From assembly GCF_023380245.1 (NCBI RefSeq), contig NZ_CP093365.1, forward strand, positions 744,001 through 808,000: a DNA stretch of 64,000 bases, written 5' to 3'. The stretch comes from Bombilactobacillus thymidiniphilus. Lineage in GTDB: Bacteria > Bacillota > Bacilli > Lactobacillales > Lactobacillaceae. This document shows, in pieces, positions 9,276-35,189 of this stretch. Position numbers and translations under genes: made by a program. The first letter of the stretch is position 1, and the number at the start of each line of letters is the position of its first letter. Under the pieces are notes generated by a model. That model was not told the origin of the DNA and made no database searches. It saw only the letters and a program-made list of their open reading frames with translations.

Positions 9276-9291
9276 TGTTTCACATGAAACA
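9276..9291. promoter_or_regulatory. parS: Degenerate parS-like site
   Basis: TGTTTCACATGAAACA differs from the consensus TGTTTCACGTGAAACA by one central base. It lies in the short gap between rpsF and ssb. The change breaks the central CG step, so binding may be weaker than at the other sites. Confidence 0.55.
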
Positions 9292-15743: not shown

Positions 15744-16883
15744 TTAAAATGTTCTAACTGGAGTAATTAGCTGAATAAAGTTCTCTTTATTATCACTTGG
15801 TTTCAAAGTGAATGGATGTAAAGCTGACGTAAATTCAACTTCAATTTTGGTATCACCAAAAGCTTGTAATGCTTCTTTTAAATAATCTGGATTAAATGAA
15901 ATCTCTAAATCAGCCCCGCTTAAAGCCTCCGTTGTCAAATTTTCTTCTACTGTACCAACTTCAGGGGAATTGCCATAAAGAGTTACTTTGCTGGCATTAA
16001 CATCAATAGCTAGGCGTACCACATTATTACGACTGGCATGCGATAACAAGGAAGCACGCTCGACAGATTGCAATAATGATTTTGCATCAAAAGTTAGCTG
16101 CGTGTCGGAACTCGTCGGAATCAAGCGATCCGTTCCTGGATAATTACCTTCCAATAACCGAGAATAAAATAATGTATTCTGGAATTCAAACAAAATTTGA
16201 TTTTCCGAAATTGAAATCTTAATTTCAGAATTGTCTTCAATTAAGCAATGTTCCAATTCTTTCAAACTGCGCGCCGGCACTACAATATCATAATCATTAT
16301 CACTTTGATTATTTACTTTTACAATGCGTTGCGCTAACCGATGACTGTCGGTTGCGACACCAAGCAATTTTTCAGCGGAAATTTTTAAATGGAGTCCTGT
16401 TAGGATGGGGCGATTTTCTTGTTTAGAAGCTGAGAATACAGTTTCATCAACTAGTTGGCGCAACATTTCAGCGGAAATACTTAATTTTTCATTGCTTTCA
16501 ACTTCAGGCAAACGAGGATAACTATTTGCATCCAAACCGTTAATAGTAAATTCAGTTTTACCAGACTTGATAATTGTCTGATTATTTTCCACAACATTCA
16601 ATGTAAACTGTTCACCTGGCAATTTCTTAATAATTTCATTAAAAAATCGAGCAGGTAAGACAATCGCACCAGTATTTTCAATGTGTAATTCATTGTCAGC
16701 ATCACTAACCGAGATAAATGTTTGTATTGAGATATCAACATCGCTACCTGTGATAGTCAAACCTTCTTGGCTCAATTCTAATTTGATACCGGTCAAAATT
16801 GGAATAGTAGTTTTAGTAGAAATTGCTCTTTGGACGTTACTAATTTTTTTGATGAATTGATTGCGGTTGATTGTGAATTTCAT
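15744..16883 (-). CDS. dnaN: DNA polymerase III sliding clamp (beta subunit)
   Basis: DnaN (379 residues) forms the ring-shaped dimer that tethers polymerase to DNA. Three clamp domains of about 125 residues each can be followed, with N-terminal MKFTINRNQFIKKISNVQRA and the C-terminal end QLITPVRTF typical of the family. The ribosome binding site AAAAGGAG lies in the AT-rich tract that also forms part of the origin. Cotranscribed with dnaA. Confidence 0.98.
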   Translation of the reverse strand: MKFTINRNQFIKKISNVQRAISTKTTIPILTGIKLELSQEGLTITGSDVDISIQTFISVSDADNELHIENTGAIVLPARFFNEIIKKLPGEQFTLNVVENNQTIIKSGKTEFTINGLDANSYPRLPEVESNEKLSISAEMLRQLVDETVFSASKQENRPILTGLHLKISAEKLLGVATDSHRLAQRIVKVNNQSDNDYDIVVPARSLKELEHCLIEDNSEIKISISENQILFEFQNTLFYSRLLEGNYPGTDRLIPTSSDTQLTFDAKSLLQSVERASLLSHASRNNVVRLAIDVNASKVTLYGNSPEVGTVEENLTTEALSGADLEISFNPDYLKEALQAFGDTKIEVEFTSALHPFTLKPSDNKENFIQLITPVRTF

Positions 16884-17054
16884 TTGGAGACTCCTTTTAT
16901 ATTAATTATTAATAAAACCTAGTAGTAATAGTAGTAGGTCCTGTTAAAACTGTGGATTACTTTAAAAACAGTAAATATAATAGATATTCAGCTGTGGATA
17001 ATTTGTTAATAAAATCTGAGGATAACTCGTACTTTATTCATTTTTATCCACAAG
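16884..17054. other. oriC: oriC part 2: unwinding region between dnaA and dnaN
   Basis: This 171-bp gap holds DnaA boxes: perfect TTATCCACA at 17044-17052 and its complement TGTGGATAA at 16993-17001, and one-mismatch boxes at 17017-17025 and 16951-16959. Next to these is a run of six trinucleotides TAG/TAA at 16920-16937 (on the dnaA-sense strand CTACTACTATTACTACTA), then an AT-rich tract up to dnaN. The order boxes, short G/C-containing spacer, DnaA-trios, AT-rich tract is that of the Bacillus basal unwinding system, so strand opening is expected here. Confidence 0.85.
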
Positions 17055-18413
17055 TTACTGTTTTAGAGTGCCCCGCAGGTTTGTGACGTCATGCTGTATA
17101 TTTAAATCAGATTCGAGTAATTTAGCAATTTTTTCACAGGAATGCAAGACCGTTGTATGATCTTTCCCGCCGAATTCTTGTCCAATTTTTGGCAAAGAAC
17201 TGTCTGTCAATTCTCTGGCTAAATACATGGCGATTTGGCGAGGCACAACAATTGTTTTAGTACGTCGCTTGCCTTTTAGGTCACCTACCGAAATCTTAAA
17301 ATATTTAGCGACGACGGTTTGAATTTTATCAATACTTAAACCAACTTGATGTTTGGCATCTTTTAAATCCTTCAAAGCTTCAGCCGCCAAACTAACGGTG
17401 ATATCCGAATTTTTCATTGTGGAATAAGCTTGAACGCGGACTAAAGCGCCTTCTAATTCACGAACATTACTATCAATTTGGCTGGCGATATAAGATAAAG
17501 CATCATCGGGAATTTCAAGATTTTCGGCAATTGCTTTTTTACGCAAAATAGCCGTTCTAGTTTCTAAATCAGGTGCAGTGATATCCACAGAAAGCCCCCA
17601 TTTAAAGCGTGATACTAATCGTTCTTGCAATTTGGGAATTTCATTAGGCAAGCGATCAGATGTTAAAACAATTTGTTTTTTAGTGTTATACAAAGTGTTG
17701 AAAGTATGGAAGAATTCTTCTTGCGTTCCCTCTTTATCAGCAAAAAACTGAATATCATCAACTAAAAGCAAGTCTACAGTCCGATATTCATTGCGAAATT
17801 CTTCTTGCGTACGATTTTGAATAGAATTGATAAAATCATTCGCAAACGATTCACTGGAAATATATTTAACATTAGCTTGGGGATTACGATCTAAGAGTCG
17901 GTGACCGATAGCTTGCATCAAATGGGTTTTCCCCAAACCGACACCGCCATAAATAAAAAGCGGATTATACATAGTTCCGGGTTCTTCAGAAACTACTAAA
18001 GCAGCGGCGTGAGCCATTTGATTGCCTGTTCCAGTTACAAAAGAATCAAACGTGTATTTACTATTTAAATGAGCTTTTTGTAAAGGCGACTCGGCAGGTT
18101 GCACTTTATTTTGATTGTCGCTGGTAGGTTGCGTCATTTTCTTTTCGACGTCTGAATTTAATAAAACAATTGGCACAATCTCTTGGTTACTGTATTCATA
18201 AGCAGCTTCCACAACTTTAGTGCTGATATTGCGCTCCCAATACTCTTTATGCAGTGACGATGGGACGGCAATATAGATATTATTATTTTCTAACTTAAGT
18301 GGTTTGGCGCTTTCGATCCAAGTTTGAAAACTGACTACTGCGAATTCTTTTTTAAATTTTTCCTGTAGAAAATTCCAAAAAGAATCTAGTTCGCCGTTGG
18401 TAATTTCAGGCAC
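17055..18413 (-). CDS. dnaA: Chromosomal replication initiator DnaA
   Basis: DnaA (452 residues) binds DnaA boxes and opens the origin. Domain I (about 1-85) has FQTWIES; domain II is a short Gln/Pro/Ser linker; the AAA+ domain has Walker A GGVGLGKT at 156-163 and Walker B LLLVDDIQFF near 220; domain IV holds the helix-turn-helix FGGKDHTTVLHS near 420. The start MPEITNGELDSFW has GGAGG upstream. It is flanked by box-rich DNA on both sides, allowing autoregulation. Confidence 0.98.
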   Translation of the reverse strand: MPEITNGELDSFWNFLQEKFKKEFAVVSFQTWIESAKPLKLENNNIYIAVPSSLHKEYWERNISTKVVEAAYEYSNQEIVPIVLLNSDVEKKMTQPTSDNQNKVQPAESPLQKAHLNSKYTFDSFVTGTGNQMAHAAALVVSEEPGTMYNPLFIYGGVGLGKTHLMQAIGHRLLDRNPQANVKYISSESFANDFINSIQNRTQEEFRNEYRTVDLLLVDDIQFFADKEGTQEEFFHTFNTLYNTKKQIVLTSDRLPNEIPKLQERLVSRFKWGLSVDITAPDLETRTAILRKKAIAENLEIPDDALSYIASQIDSNVRELEGALVRVQAYSTMKNSDITVSLAAEALKDLKDAKHQVGLSIDKIQTVVAKYFKISVGDLKGKRRTKTIVVPRQIAMYLARELTDSSLPKIGQEFGGKDHTTVLHSCEKIAKLLESDLNIQHDVTNLRGTLKQ

Positions 18414-18898
18414 AAAAAACTCCTCCGCTAAAACGTGTAATTATTAACTGTCTTATTCTAGCATCAATTAAAAAAGTTTTCCACAGGTTGAAATCTTAAA
18501 TTAACTATTGCATTATTCAGGTAAAAAAATCTTTGACTACTGTTGATAAATATTTTTGTTTTTTTAACAATTTAATTTTTCCACAGCCAAAAAATACAAG
18601 ATAAATTCTTATTACTAGGCAAATAGAAATAATTTATAGCAAGGGAATTCACTGCTGTGGAAAACATGTTGACAACTATGTTATTTGTTAATAAACGGGG
18701 ATTATCGCTGTGTATAAGTTTACTTGTTTATTTTTAACCACTTAGTTTTACATGAGTTTTCAACAAGTAAAAAAACAAAGAATTGCAAGCAAACACAAAA
18801 AAAATTTATTTTGAAAAAAAAGTATGTTAAACTATCAAAGTGATTATCATTAGAACAATTTTGTAAATAATCGATACTAGTTATGGAGGTGTTTATAC
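18414..18898. other. oriC: oriC part 1: DnaA-box region between dnaA and rpmH
   Basis: A 485-bp gene-free, AT-rich stretch at the point where gene direction flips. DnaA-box-like 9-mers with one mismatch to TTATCCACA (or its complement) lie at 18477-18485, 18541-18549, 18577-18585, 18656-18664 and 18709-18717, and a weaker one at 18757-18765. No perfect box is present here, unlike the dnaA-dnaN gap. The right end (18781-18840) is a poly-A-rich tract before the rpmH leader. Promoters for dnaA and rpmH must also lie here. Confidence 0.8.
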
Positions 18899-19039
18899 AT
18901 GACTACAAAAAGAACTTATCAACCAAAGAAACGTCATCGTCAACGTGTTCATGGTTTTATGAAACGGATGAGTACAAGCAACGGTCGCAAGGTATTAGCC
19001 CGTCGCCGTCAAAAAGGTAGAAAAGTTTTATCCGCCTAA
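18899..19039 (+). CDS. rpmH: 50S ribosomal protein L34
   Basis: bL34 has 46 residues, starting [20 protein letters not shown] and ending GRKVLSA, strongly basic as for the whole family. ATG at 18899 follows GGAGGTG with good spacing. It is the first plus-strand gene after the origin and lies ahead of rnpA, the universal arrangement. Confidence 0.97.
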
Positions 19040-33468: not shown

Positions 33469-35189
33469 TATTGCTCACCTCGCATATGAGAAGTTAATTC
33501 ATAGAAAGGACCAGTATTCTGTTTTTGAAGTTGCTCAATGGGACCTTGCTCCACAATTTTACCCTGATCCATGACAATTACATAATCCATTTGCTGTAGC
33601 CAGTGCAAGCGATGTGTGGCAAAAATTACTAAATGGTTCTCGAATAAAGGCAACATCGTTTGTTTCAATTTATATTCGGTTTCAATATCTAAATGTGCTG
33701 TTGGTTCATCAAATAATAAGATGTGGCGCTGATTGGCTAGAAAAGCACGCGCTAGCATAATACGTTGCGCTTGTCCCCCCGAAATTCCACGTCCACCTTC
33801 ACCGACGAGCGTATCTAAGCCATCCGGCAAAGAAGCGATAAATTCTGTAAGACCAGCTTGCTGGACCGCCTTTTGTAAGGCGAGAGGGGCTGCTTTAGGT
33901 TGATAAAACAAAATATTATTAGCAATGGTATCACTAAATAAATGCGGTTTTTGTGGTAAATAAGTGACTTGATTTTGCCAGTTAATTTGCGCTAAATTGG
34001 GAATAACTTGCTCATTAACGATTACTTGTCCAGCATTTGGTGTTAAAAAACCGCCTAGTAAATCCAGCAAAGTCGATTTTCCAGAACCGGATTGGCCAAT
34101 GATAGCAATTTTTTGAAATCCGGCAAGTTGTAGCGACAAATCTTTTAAAGTCGGTTGTTGGTCATAATCAAAATCAATATGTTCTAAGGTAAGTTGACTT
34201 GTTTTGTTCCACGTGAAACTGTCAAGCTGCTTTTGCGGCGCAGTAATCGGCGTAGCAATTAATTCATTTACTGCAGTAAAAGCGTTTTTTCCGTTTAGAG
34301 TTGCATGATAATCACTGGAAAAATCACGTAAGGGCAAAAAATATTCGGGCGATAAAATTAGGGCAATTAAAGCCGGATAAAGGGCAATTCTACCATTCAT
34401 TAATCCCAATCCCAAAAAGACTGCCACAATAGCAATTGACAAAGTGGTAAACCAATCAAGGGCAAAAGTCGATAAAATAGCTACTCTGAGAGTGCTCATC
34501 GTTCTTTTTCGATAACTTTCACTAACACTATAAACATTATGAGCATACTGTTTACTTAATCCAAGCATTTTTAGAGTAGGTAAACCGCGCAACGCATCTA
34601 AAAAATGGTTGGAAAGTGTAACATACTCGCTGTACTGATTATCAGCTTTTCTCTGTGCTGCGTAACCCAAAATAATCATAAAGAGAATAATCACAGGAAA
34701 TACTAGGATCAAGATGATACCGGAAGTGTGATCTTGATAAAAAACAAAGCACAAAATTACCCAGGGAATAATGGCTAAATTCATAAATTTAGAGAGAATC
34801 AGATTGAAATAATCATGAACATCATCCATACCGTTCAAAACATTAGTAACAAGATTACCTGAACCTTTTTTAGCAGTCATTTGTAAACCGGCAGCATAAA
34901 TTTTAGCCAGTGATTGTTGGCGTAGATGTTCAGTCGATTTAGTGGCAAACCGATCTAACAAAATATCTTTTAACCAAGTCAACAAGTGACGCACTAAAAA
35001 GGCAATCACGAAAAATACCAACGGAATCAACATTAAATGCCAATTTTGGCGGTGCCAAAGGATAACTAATGATTCTGCTAAATATTTAGCCTGTAATAAA
35101 ATCGCAAATGCTTGCAAGATAGTTAACCCTGCAAGCATTTGAAAAAGCGACTTTACTCCAGGTAATTGGAATAAACGCTTATCTATCAT
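33468..35189 (-). CDS. cydD: ABC transporter CydD (cytochrome bd assembly)
   Basis: CydD (573 residues) is the partner of CydC. The membrane domain covers about 1-320; the ATPase domain has Walker A GQSGSGKST near 358, signature GISGGQAQR near 470 and Walker B LLFDEPTAHLD. It starts 5 bp after cydB and runs into cydC by a one-base overlap. A parS-like site is embedded in its coding sequence at 34205-34220. Confidence 0.93.
   Translation of the reverse strand: MIDKRLFQLPGVKSLFQMLAGLTILQAFAILLQAKYLAESLVILWHRQNWHLMLIPLVFFVIAFLVRHLLTWLKDILLDRFATKSTEHLRQQSLAKIYAAGLQMTAKKGSGNLVTNVLNGMDDVHDYFNLILSKFMNLAIIPWVILCFVFYQDHTSGIILILVFPVIILFMIILGYAAQRKADNQYSEYVTLSNHFLDALRGLPTLKMLGLSKQYAHNVYSVSESYRKRTMSTLRVAILSTFALDWFTTLSIAIVAVFLGLGLMNGRIALYPALIALILSPEYFLPLRDFSSDYHATLNGKNAFTAVNELIATPITAPQKQLDSFTWNKTSQLTLEHIDFDYDQQPTLKDLSLQLAGFQKIAIIGQSGSGKSTLLDLLGGFLTPNAGQVIVNEQVIPNLAQINWQNQVTYLPQKPHLFSDTIANNILFYQPKAAPLALQKAVQQAGLTEFIASLPDGLDTLVGEGGRGISGGQAQRIMLARAFLANQRHILLFDEPTAHLDIETEYKLKQTMLPLFENHLVIFATHRLHWLQQMDYVIVMDQGKIVEQGPIEQLQKQNTGPFYELTSHMRGEQ
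34205..34220. promoter_or_regulatory. parS: parS site inside cydD
   Basis: TGTTCCACGTGAAACT matches TGTTNCACGTGAAACA at all but the last base. It lies 17 kb from the origin on the right side, about mirror to the pair at 256-409 on the left. Confidence 0.8.

Follow-up and report, generated by a model that had tools for sequence, protein, structure and literature searches.

A predicted basal unwinding system with an altered platform DnaA box between dnaA and dnaN of Bombilactobacillus thymidiniphilus

In the accessible parts of the literature cited here, the basal unwinding system (BUS) is described as a DnaA box with at least three DnaA-trios within 16 nt, and the systems of Enterococcus faecalis, Staphylococcus aureus and Listeria monocytogenes are reported to unwind in vitro (PMC8287927). 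The BUS of Bacillus subtilis (incC) comprises DnaA boxes #6 and #7 and six trios (PMC10721633), and its distal box is active only from 44 bp outward, with helical phasing that lasts for about three turns (PMC6669920). Asn187 of B. subtilis DnaA grips the middle adenine of the trio (PMC10721633), and DnaD of the same organism binds the strand opposite the trios, where at least two TnnT are required (PMC10201434). The origins of B. subtilis, with a box cluster on either side of dnaA (PMC6669920), and of Helicobacter pylori, also with two box clusters (PMC8235120), are bipartite. In Escherichia coli, the box consensus is TTATnCACA and low-affinity boxes bind DnaA-ATP cooperatively (PMC5742627); Arg399 of DnaA reads the TTA part in the minor groove (PMC5742627, PMC4588119).

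The BUS element of the dnaA-dnaN gap analyzed here is of the canonical kind already described in the accessible parts of PMC6669920 and PMC8287927, and what is new is its altered platform box. Among the literature matches listed, no report of such a box was found, and no study of the origin of this genus by title or abstract opening; the single match listed for DnaA-trios together with Lactobacillus concerned a plasmid.

The dnaA-dnaN intergenic region

The window is the whole 64-kb stretch of DNA that was analyzed. On re-reading of the sequence, the coordinates and letters given for 16884-17054 in the preliminary description of this locus proved correct. The region shows the following features, in window coordinates:

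15744-16883, minus strand: dnaN, by gene order and tblastn of the translation against relatives
16895-16919, minus strand: putative AT-rich unwinding tract, by composition and stability
16920-16937, minus strand: run of six consecutive DnaA-trios, CTACTACTATTACTACTA on the dnaA-sense strand
16938-16941, minus strand: GGAC linker (the "GC-rich" gap), by sequence
16942-16950, minus strand: second box in tandem, GTTTTAACA, degenerate (4 mismatches) and corresponding to B. subtilis box #7
16951-16959, minus strand: platform (trio-proximal) DnaA box TAATCCACA, 1 mismatch, A at position 2, equivalent to B. subtilis box #6
16993-17001, minus strand: DnaA box without mismatch, some four helical turns (42 bp) upstream of the platform box
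17004-17012, minus strand: weak DnaA box TTATTAACA, 2 mismatches, by box scan
17017-17025, minus strand: DnaA box TTATCCTCA, 1 mismatch, by box scan
17044-17052, plus strand: distal DnaA box, perfect, in inverted orientation to dnaA and 93 bp from the platform box on its upstream side
17055-18413, minus strand: dnaA, 452 aa, GTG start, identified by alignment with B. subtilis DnaA
18414-18898, no strand assigned: upstream DnaA-box cluster without a trio run, putative second origin part, with one-mismatch boxes at 18477 (plus), 18541 (minus), 18577 (plus), 18656 (minus) and 18709 (minus)
18899, plus strand: start of rpmH, named from gene order and by eye

The nearest named relatives found for the DnaA protein belong to Alkalibacterium (68%), Agrilactobacillus (64%) and Lactobacillus (57%), which points to the order Lactobacillales. 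In the direction of dnaA (minus strand), the 171-bp gap between dnaA and dnaN contains an inverted perfect box, four forward boxes, the degenerate tandem box, GGAC, the six trios and the AT tract. On the complementary strand, which is the one read by DnaA, all six trios are 3'-GAT-5' or 3'-AAT-5', and the first of them lies 13 nt from the platform box. When the 171-bp gap was shuffled 20,000 times, neither four boxes nor six trios were ever reached; a run of six trios is expected 0.003 times per window. Furthermore, a box with at most one mismatch within 16 nt of at least five [CT]TA trios was absent from all 300 dinucleotide shuffles of the 64-kb window, and the real window has a single such place, counted twice through two overlapping five-trio starts.

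These box and trio statistics, together with the anatomy, bear out the preliminary proposal of a trio unwinding element arranged as in Bacillus. The proposal had also set two perfect and two near-perfect boxes beside the trios: all of them are present, but only the one-mismatch box at 16951-16959 adjoins the trios, the perfect boxes sitting further upstream. In addition, the proposal overlooked that the trio-adjacent box is itself atypical, with A at position 2.

The gap shares with the B. subtilis BUS the box, the degenerate tandem box, the GC gap, the AT tract and the number of six trios (PMC10721633), as well as a further forward box at the box #3 position, about 44 bp upstream in B. subtilis (PMC6669920). 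It differs in its platform box, which is TAATCCACA, and its spacer of 13 nt compares with 12 nt in the Bacillales loci L006-L008 and L010-L023 (B. subtilis itself not among them). Where the accessible text of PMC8287927 asks for a box with at most two mismatches at 0-16 nt from the first trio, TAATCCACA shows one mismatch at 13 nt; at least three trios with a central adenine (NAN) are called for and six are found, and the optional second tandem box with at most four mismatches corresponds to GTTTTAACA, with four. The DnaA arginine finger and the trio-reading residues are present as R269, and I195 and N192. The BUS of E. faecalis, S. aureus and L. monocytogenes has the same predicted elements, strand separation being demonstrated there and predicted here (PMC8287927). 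By our own count, the best box has three mismatches in two of the seven genomes of the genus (L082 and L085), so that these would be missed and the published criteria undercount.

We consider it very probable that the origin is bipartite, with the 171-bp gap as its unwinding half, functioning as a BUS. The sequence anatomy of the gap, its conservation, its uniqueness and the aligned trio- and box-reading residues of DnaA are direct observations; one point against this reading is the weakness of both the platform box (1 mismatch) and the tandem box (4 mismatches).

Conservation of the box-trio unit across the order

The genus is represented by seven genomes (G000-G006), that of the window included. 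In all seven the trio 18-mer is identical beside dnaA, with exactly one exact match per genome, which is the conservation in close relatives that had been proposed as a check on the element. When two mismatches are allowed, two genomes of the genus show further matches elsewhere and the backwards 18-mer, used as control, matches five times in the window's own genome and one to five times per genome across all seven; the exact match alone therefore carries information. Across the genus, 18 of the 18 trio columns and six of the nine platform-box columns are invariant, compared with none of 33 before the box and one of 28 after the trios; the flanking sequence is saturated, with 35% pairwise identity. 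All seven genomes have six strict trios, a number equaled or exceeded in only four of 135 other units (4/109 and 0/26), and L233, which is below the unit threshold, likewise has six.

The wider survey started from 119 dnaA loci out of 398 genomes (60 + 19, plus 40 picked across genera from the best-scoring rows), of which 116 contain the box-trio unit according to an anchored search for box and trio core; L109, L121 and L139 are below threshold. An added set of 12 genomes of a distant genus (g2) and 23 genomes of 18 genera not previously covered gave 26 passes out of 35, with three g2 genomes and five others below threshold and one locus without dnaN. Taken together, the unit passes in 142 of the 154 genomes across the order, to which E. 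faecalis also belongs, and in 78 of the 83 genera; the threshold is loose, 26 of the 109 first-set units outside the genus carrying fewer than four strict [CT]TA trios. At a slightly lower threshold, 80 named loci, which partly overlap the other sets and are not all independent, gave 52 passes and 13 failures, nine gaps being too short and six loci lacking a dnaN neighbor. Among the 116 units, with spacings of 11-14 permitted in the search, the box-trio spacing is 13 nt in 102 (all seven of the genus included), 12 in 13 and 14 in one, whereas the distance from the trios to dnaN ranges from 39 to 276 nt; the trios are therefore anchored to the box rather than to the gene. The tandem-box position also holds conserved columns across the 102 spacer-13 units. 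Two gaps depart from the general pattern: that of L122 (G033) has no DnaA box with at most one mismatch and retains a trio-like run, and that of L140 (G041) has no CTA-type trios, with a ATAATAATAATAATA repeat 14 nt after a perfect box instead.

Box architecture was surveyed in 62 genera, one genome per genus, chosen by fewest box mismatches and hence biased toward good boxes. An inverted box recurs near -84 relative to the platform box, and forward boxes near -43/-44 and -55: 49 of the 62 genera have an inverted box at -80 to -88 (27 of these at -84), 43 have a forward box at -41 to -46 and 37 have one at -52 to -57, and no forward box was found between -40 and -25 in any of them. These recurrent positions are a conserved architecture with steps of roughly one helical turn, and fit the distance and phasing rule of the B. 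subtilis distal box. The genus of the window differs from most genera examined in its inverted distal box, found at -80 to -88 in none of the seven genomes and at -89 to -95 in four, about one helical turn further out.

Position 2 of the platform box

All seven genomes of the genus carry A at the second base of the platform box, whereas all 126 units of 76 other genera carry T (109/109 in the first set and 17/17 from 15 further genera). The choice of box, made by lowest mismatch count within spacers 11-14, gives T a slight advantage. Positions 2 and 8 are the only platform-box bases otherwise invariant; position 1 varies within the genus (T in three, A in two, C and G in one each). The view that the change is unique to the genus had to be rejected: in g2, whose DnaA is 40-43% identical to that of the window, A stands at position 2 in 9/9 units above threshold and in 3/3 below it (4 mismatches). 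The platform boxes of g2 (L217-L228) read TAATCCCCN or CAATCCCCC; they carry A at position 2 and C at position 7, with two to four mismatches, and all 12 loci show five strict trios. L139, the sole g2 genome in the first survey, fell out of it because it has no box at 11-14 nt; its best box, GAATCCACA, lies 4 nt from the trios and again has A at position 2. Since a distant genus carries A at the same place, the T-to-A change is rare and recurrent.

Across 397 genomes of the family, a paired pattern test, which reaches only origins that combine a 13-nt spacer, a TYCACA box and good trios (roughly half of the family), detected the A form in 14 genomes, seven of them being the genus at its origin. 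The other seven matches lie away from the origin, six by comparison with the presumed origin places and that of G515 by fetched DNA, which shows no dnaA or dnaN match in the surrounding 6 kb. Of the 397, 187 show the T form, one of them belonging to the genus but with its match away from the origin. The test missed g2 because the boxes of g2 differ at position 7 as well. The 52 wider units have T at position 2 in 48 cases, C in two, and A and G in one each. Outside the order, L032 (Firmicutes MAG UBA3930) has the box TAATTCACA, with A at position 2, and an identical six-trio 18-mer, a possible case of convergence.

Quite possibly, if a little short of probably, the A is inherited drift without functional meaning. 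It may go back to a single event within the genus, position 1 has drifted too, and a T:A to A:T swap preserves the minor-groove acceptors and so may matter little there. Furthermore, box mismatches and trio number are uncorrelated (rho -0.04, p 0.74, 62 genera), which, with g2 having A without six trios, also led us to reject a rule by which weaker boxes go with longer trio runs. On the other hand, the position-2 column is invariant in 7/7 genomes amid saturated flanks, T is kept in every unit of the 76 other genera, and the same change appears in all nine g2 units above threshold; it is for this recurrence in a distant genus that drift is rated lower.

Readers of the unit and site of opening

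The dnaA-sense strand of the trio block shows five TnnT steps, where at least two opposite the trios are required in B. subtilis (PMC10201434, accessible part), and is a possible DnaD recognition element. That the CTA/TTA block is kept mainly as such an element, or jointly by DnaD and DnaA, is conceivable but on balance unlikely. The five TnnT, the 18 invariant columns and the presence of a DnaD-domain protein in all seven genomes of the genus agree with it, but the block stands at a constant 13 nt from a DnaA box, which points to DnaA as the reader. Any trio run creates TnnT steps automatically, so the sequence does not tell the two readers apart.

Residues N192, I195 and R269 of the DnaA protein align with N187, I190 and R264 of B. 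subtilis DnaA, the numbering of the solved chain being taken as that of the protein. N192 and R269 are the same in 7/7 genus proteins and 112/112 others, and I195 in 7/7 and 97/112. The box-reading residue aligned with E. coli Arg399, R384, is R in 7/7 and 112/112, a mapping for which we assume that chain 1j1v begins at residue 374. Under a strict filter, no genus-specific residue was found in DnaA domain IV. Under a relaxed one, 14 positions from residue 355 on differ in the genus, two of them flanking the Arg399 equivalent, and the statement that the DnaA reading head is unchanged is too strong. R383 is found in six of the seven genus proteins, with K in 100/112 elsewhere; N385 in six of seven and N in 6/112 elsewhere, the window's own DnaA having T385; C426 and L423 in 7/7, against 11/112 and 10/112 elsewhere, respectively. 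As neighbors of the Arg399 equivalent and other domain IV residues differ, DnaA specificity may have shifted slightly.

The TTA part of the box is what Arg399 reads, so the change at position 2 may lower box affinity. The fixed T-to-A change hints that, compared with most relatives, occupancy of the platform may lean more heavily on cooperative DnaA-ATP, in the manner of E. coli low-affinity boxes (PMC5742627, accessible part). A more specific version holds that, in the genus and in g2, the platform was converted to and kept as a low-affinity site (NAATCC..., T2 to A) that gates firing by ATP; firing would then proceed through cooperative DnaA-ATP assembly, aided in the genus by the six trios and the shifted distal box, and such a platform in a Gram-positive BUS would resemble the low-affinity sites of E. 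coli oriC. We regard this version as tentative and rather doubtful, and have left its rating unchanged, since the recurrence of the change speaks for it and the neighboring DnaA residues against it. The missing correlation between box mismatches and trio number, and g2 with its A but five trios, also weigh against it.

It is unlikely that, instead, the DnaA of the genus has slightly changed its specificity, making NAATCCACA a good box and the platform not weak. The differing residues beside the Arg399 equivalent (R383, N385), together with C426 and L423, would suit this explanation, and so would L085, where TAATCCACA occurs twice upstream of dnaA, so that the genus DnaA may accept it. However, the Arg399 equivalent itself is R throughout, the other TCCACA sites of the genus origins keep T at position 2 in 30/34 cases, the same share as elsewhere (800/896), and the window's own DnaA has T385 instead of N.

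Loss of a replication regulator as an explanation for the weak platform was rejected, as YabA and ParB are present in all seven genomes of the genus. Overall, YabA was found in 57 of 60 genomes (54 above the curated cut-off) and ParB in 59 of 60, the sole genome without a ParB match being that of L122 (G033), whose assembly is 91% complete and in which YabA is present. A strong second ParB-family match is also found in 7/7 genomes of the genus, and two ParB-family genes, ParB and probably Noc, lie close together at G000:C1:820813-822947, about 12.8 kb past the end of the window. In addition, four parS-like 16-mers lie around the origin (256-271, 394-409, 9276-9291 and 34205-34220), with one or two mismatches to the parS consensus, and none of 100 shuffles reached four.

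On the other side of dnaA, the upstream cluster consists of five boxes with at most one mismatch (three TTTTCCACA, one TTATACACA and one TTATCAACA), of which TTATACACA matches the E. coli consensus TTATnCACA (PMC5742627, accessible part). None of 3000 shuffles of 18414-18907 reaches five such boxes, the shuffles giving 0-3. The earlier statement that this region has only degenerate boxes is true at 9/9 identity but misleading in view of this clustering, and setting the upstream side aside on that ground fails. Box clusters beyond chance thus stand on both sides of dnaA (gap, 0/20,000 shuffles; upstream, 0/3000). No run of at least four strict trios was found within 500 bp upstream of dnaA in the five genus loci that hold this DNA, the other two loci beginning at dnaA; a second trio element upstream was accordingly rejected, and opening there is disfavored.

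Among all 20-bp segments of the window, 16898-16917 has the lowest duplex stability (rank 1 of 63,981), and the gap is less stable than the upstream region at 20, 30 and 100 bp, but at 50 bp the two are alike (rank 103 for the gap and 85 for the upstream region, of 63,951), so AT-richness alone does not locate the opening. The cumulative GC skew of the window has its minimum at 16790 and is flat over 16900-18900; hence it does not separate the two halves of the origin. An origin that opens upstream of dnaA (18414-18898), with the gap motifs only accessory or titrating, would accommodate the five upstream boxes and the equal 50-bp stability, but it is very improbable given that strict trio runs are missing from that side in 5/5 loci and that it is the trio block that stays invariant within the locus. 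With a trio run found in the gap only and a second cluster upstream, the comparison supports what had been predicted for this locus, and a bipartite origin opening downstream of dnaA appears well supported by sequence. Regulation of dnaN transcription or translation by the trio block, instead of replication, is suggested by its place in the dnaN leader but is scarcely credible, since the distance to the dnaN start varies over 39-276 nt at a nearly fixed box spacing and the region's promoter-like matches, 12 in number and near chance (9.3, sd 2.8), all fall outside the gap.

The locus is best read as a functioning BUS whose platform box is specific to the lineage and perhaps weaker. On the model of B. 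subtilis, E. faecalis, S. aureus and L. monocytogenes, the gap would be occupied by DnaA, separate its strands and load the helicase. Assisted by the two boxes lying 42 and 93 bp upstream and by the cluster ahead of dnaA, DnaA on the platform box 16951-16959 would nucleate a DnaA-ATP oligomer; this would grow over the six trios 16920-16937, each subunit holding the middle adenine of a trio via N192, the equivalent of B. subtilis Asn187, and separate the strands into the AT tract 16895-16919, where the helicase would load. Since the opposite strand bears five TnnT, the one block may serve both helicase-loading routes, through DnaA trios and through DnaD TnnT.

The likely opening site of the chromosome of a lactic acid bacterium is thereby placed at base resolution. 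The altered platform box is of modest interest unless its affinity proves regulatory; if the platform is indeed a low-affinity site, a TTATCCACA platform should need less DnaA and show a weaker ATP requirement for binding than TAATCCACA. Two genera in which one otherwise invariant platform base is swapped, with trios and spacing retained, amount to a natural experiment and allow a direct test of whether the affinity of the platform governs initiation control in a BUS origin.
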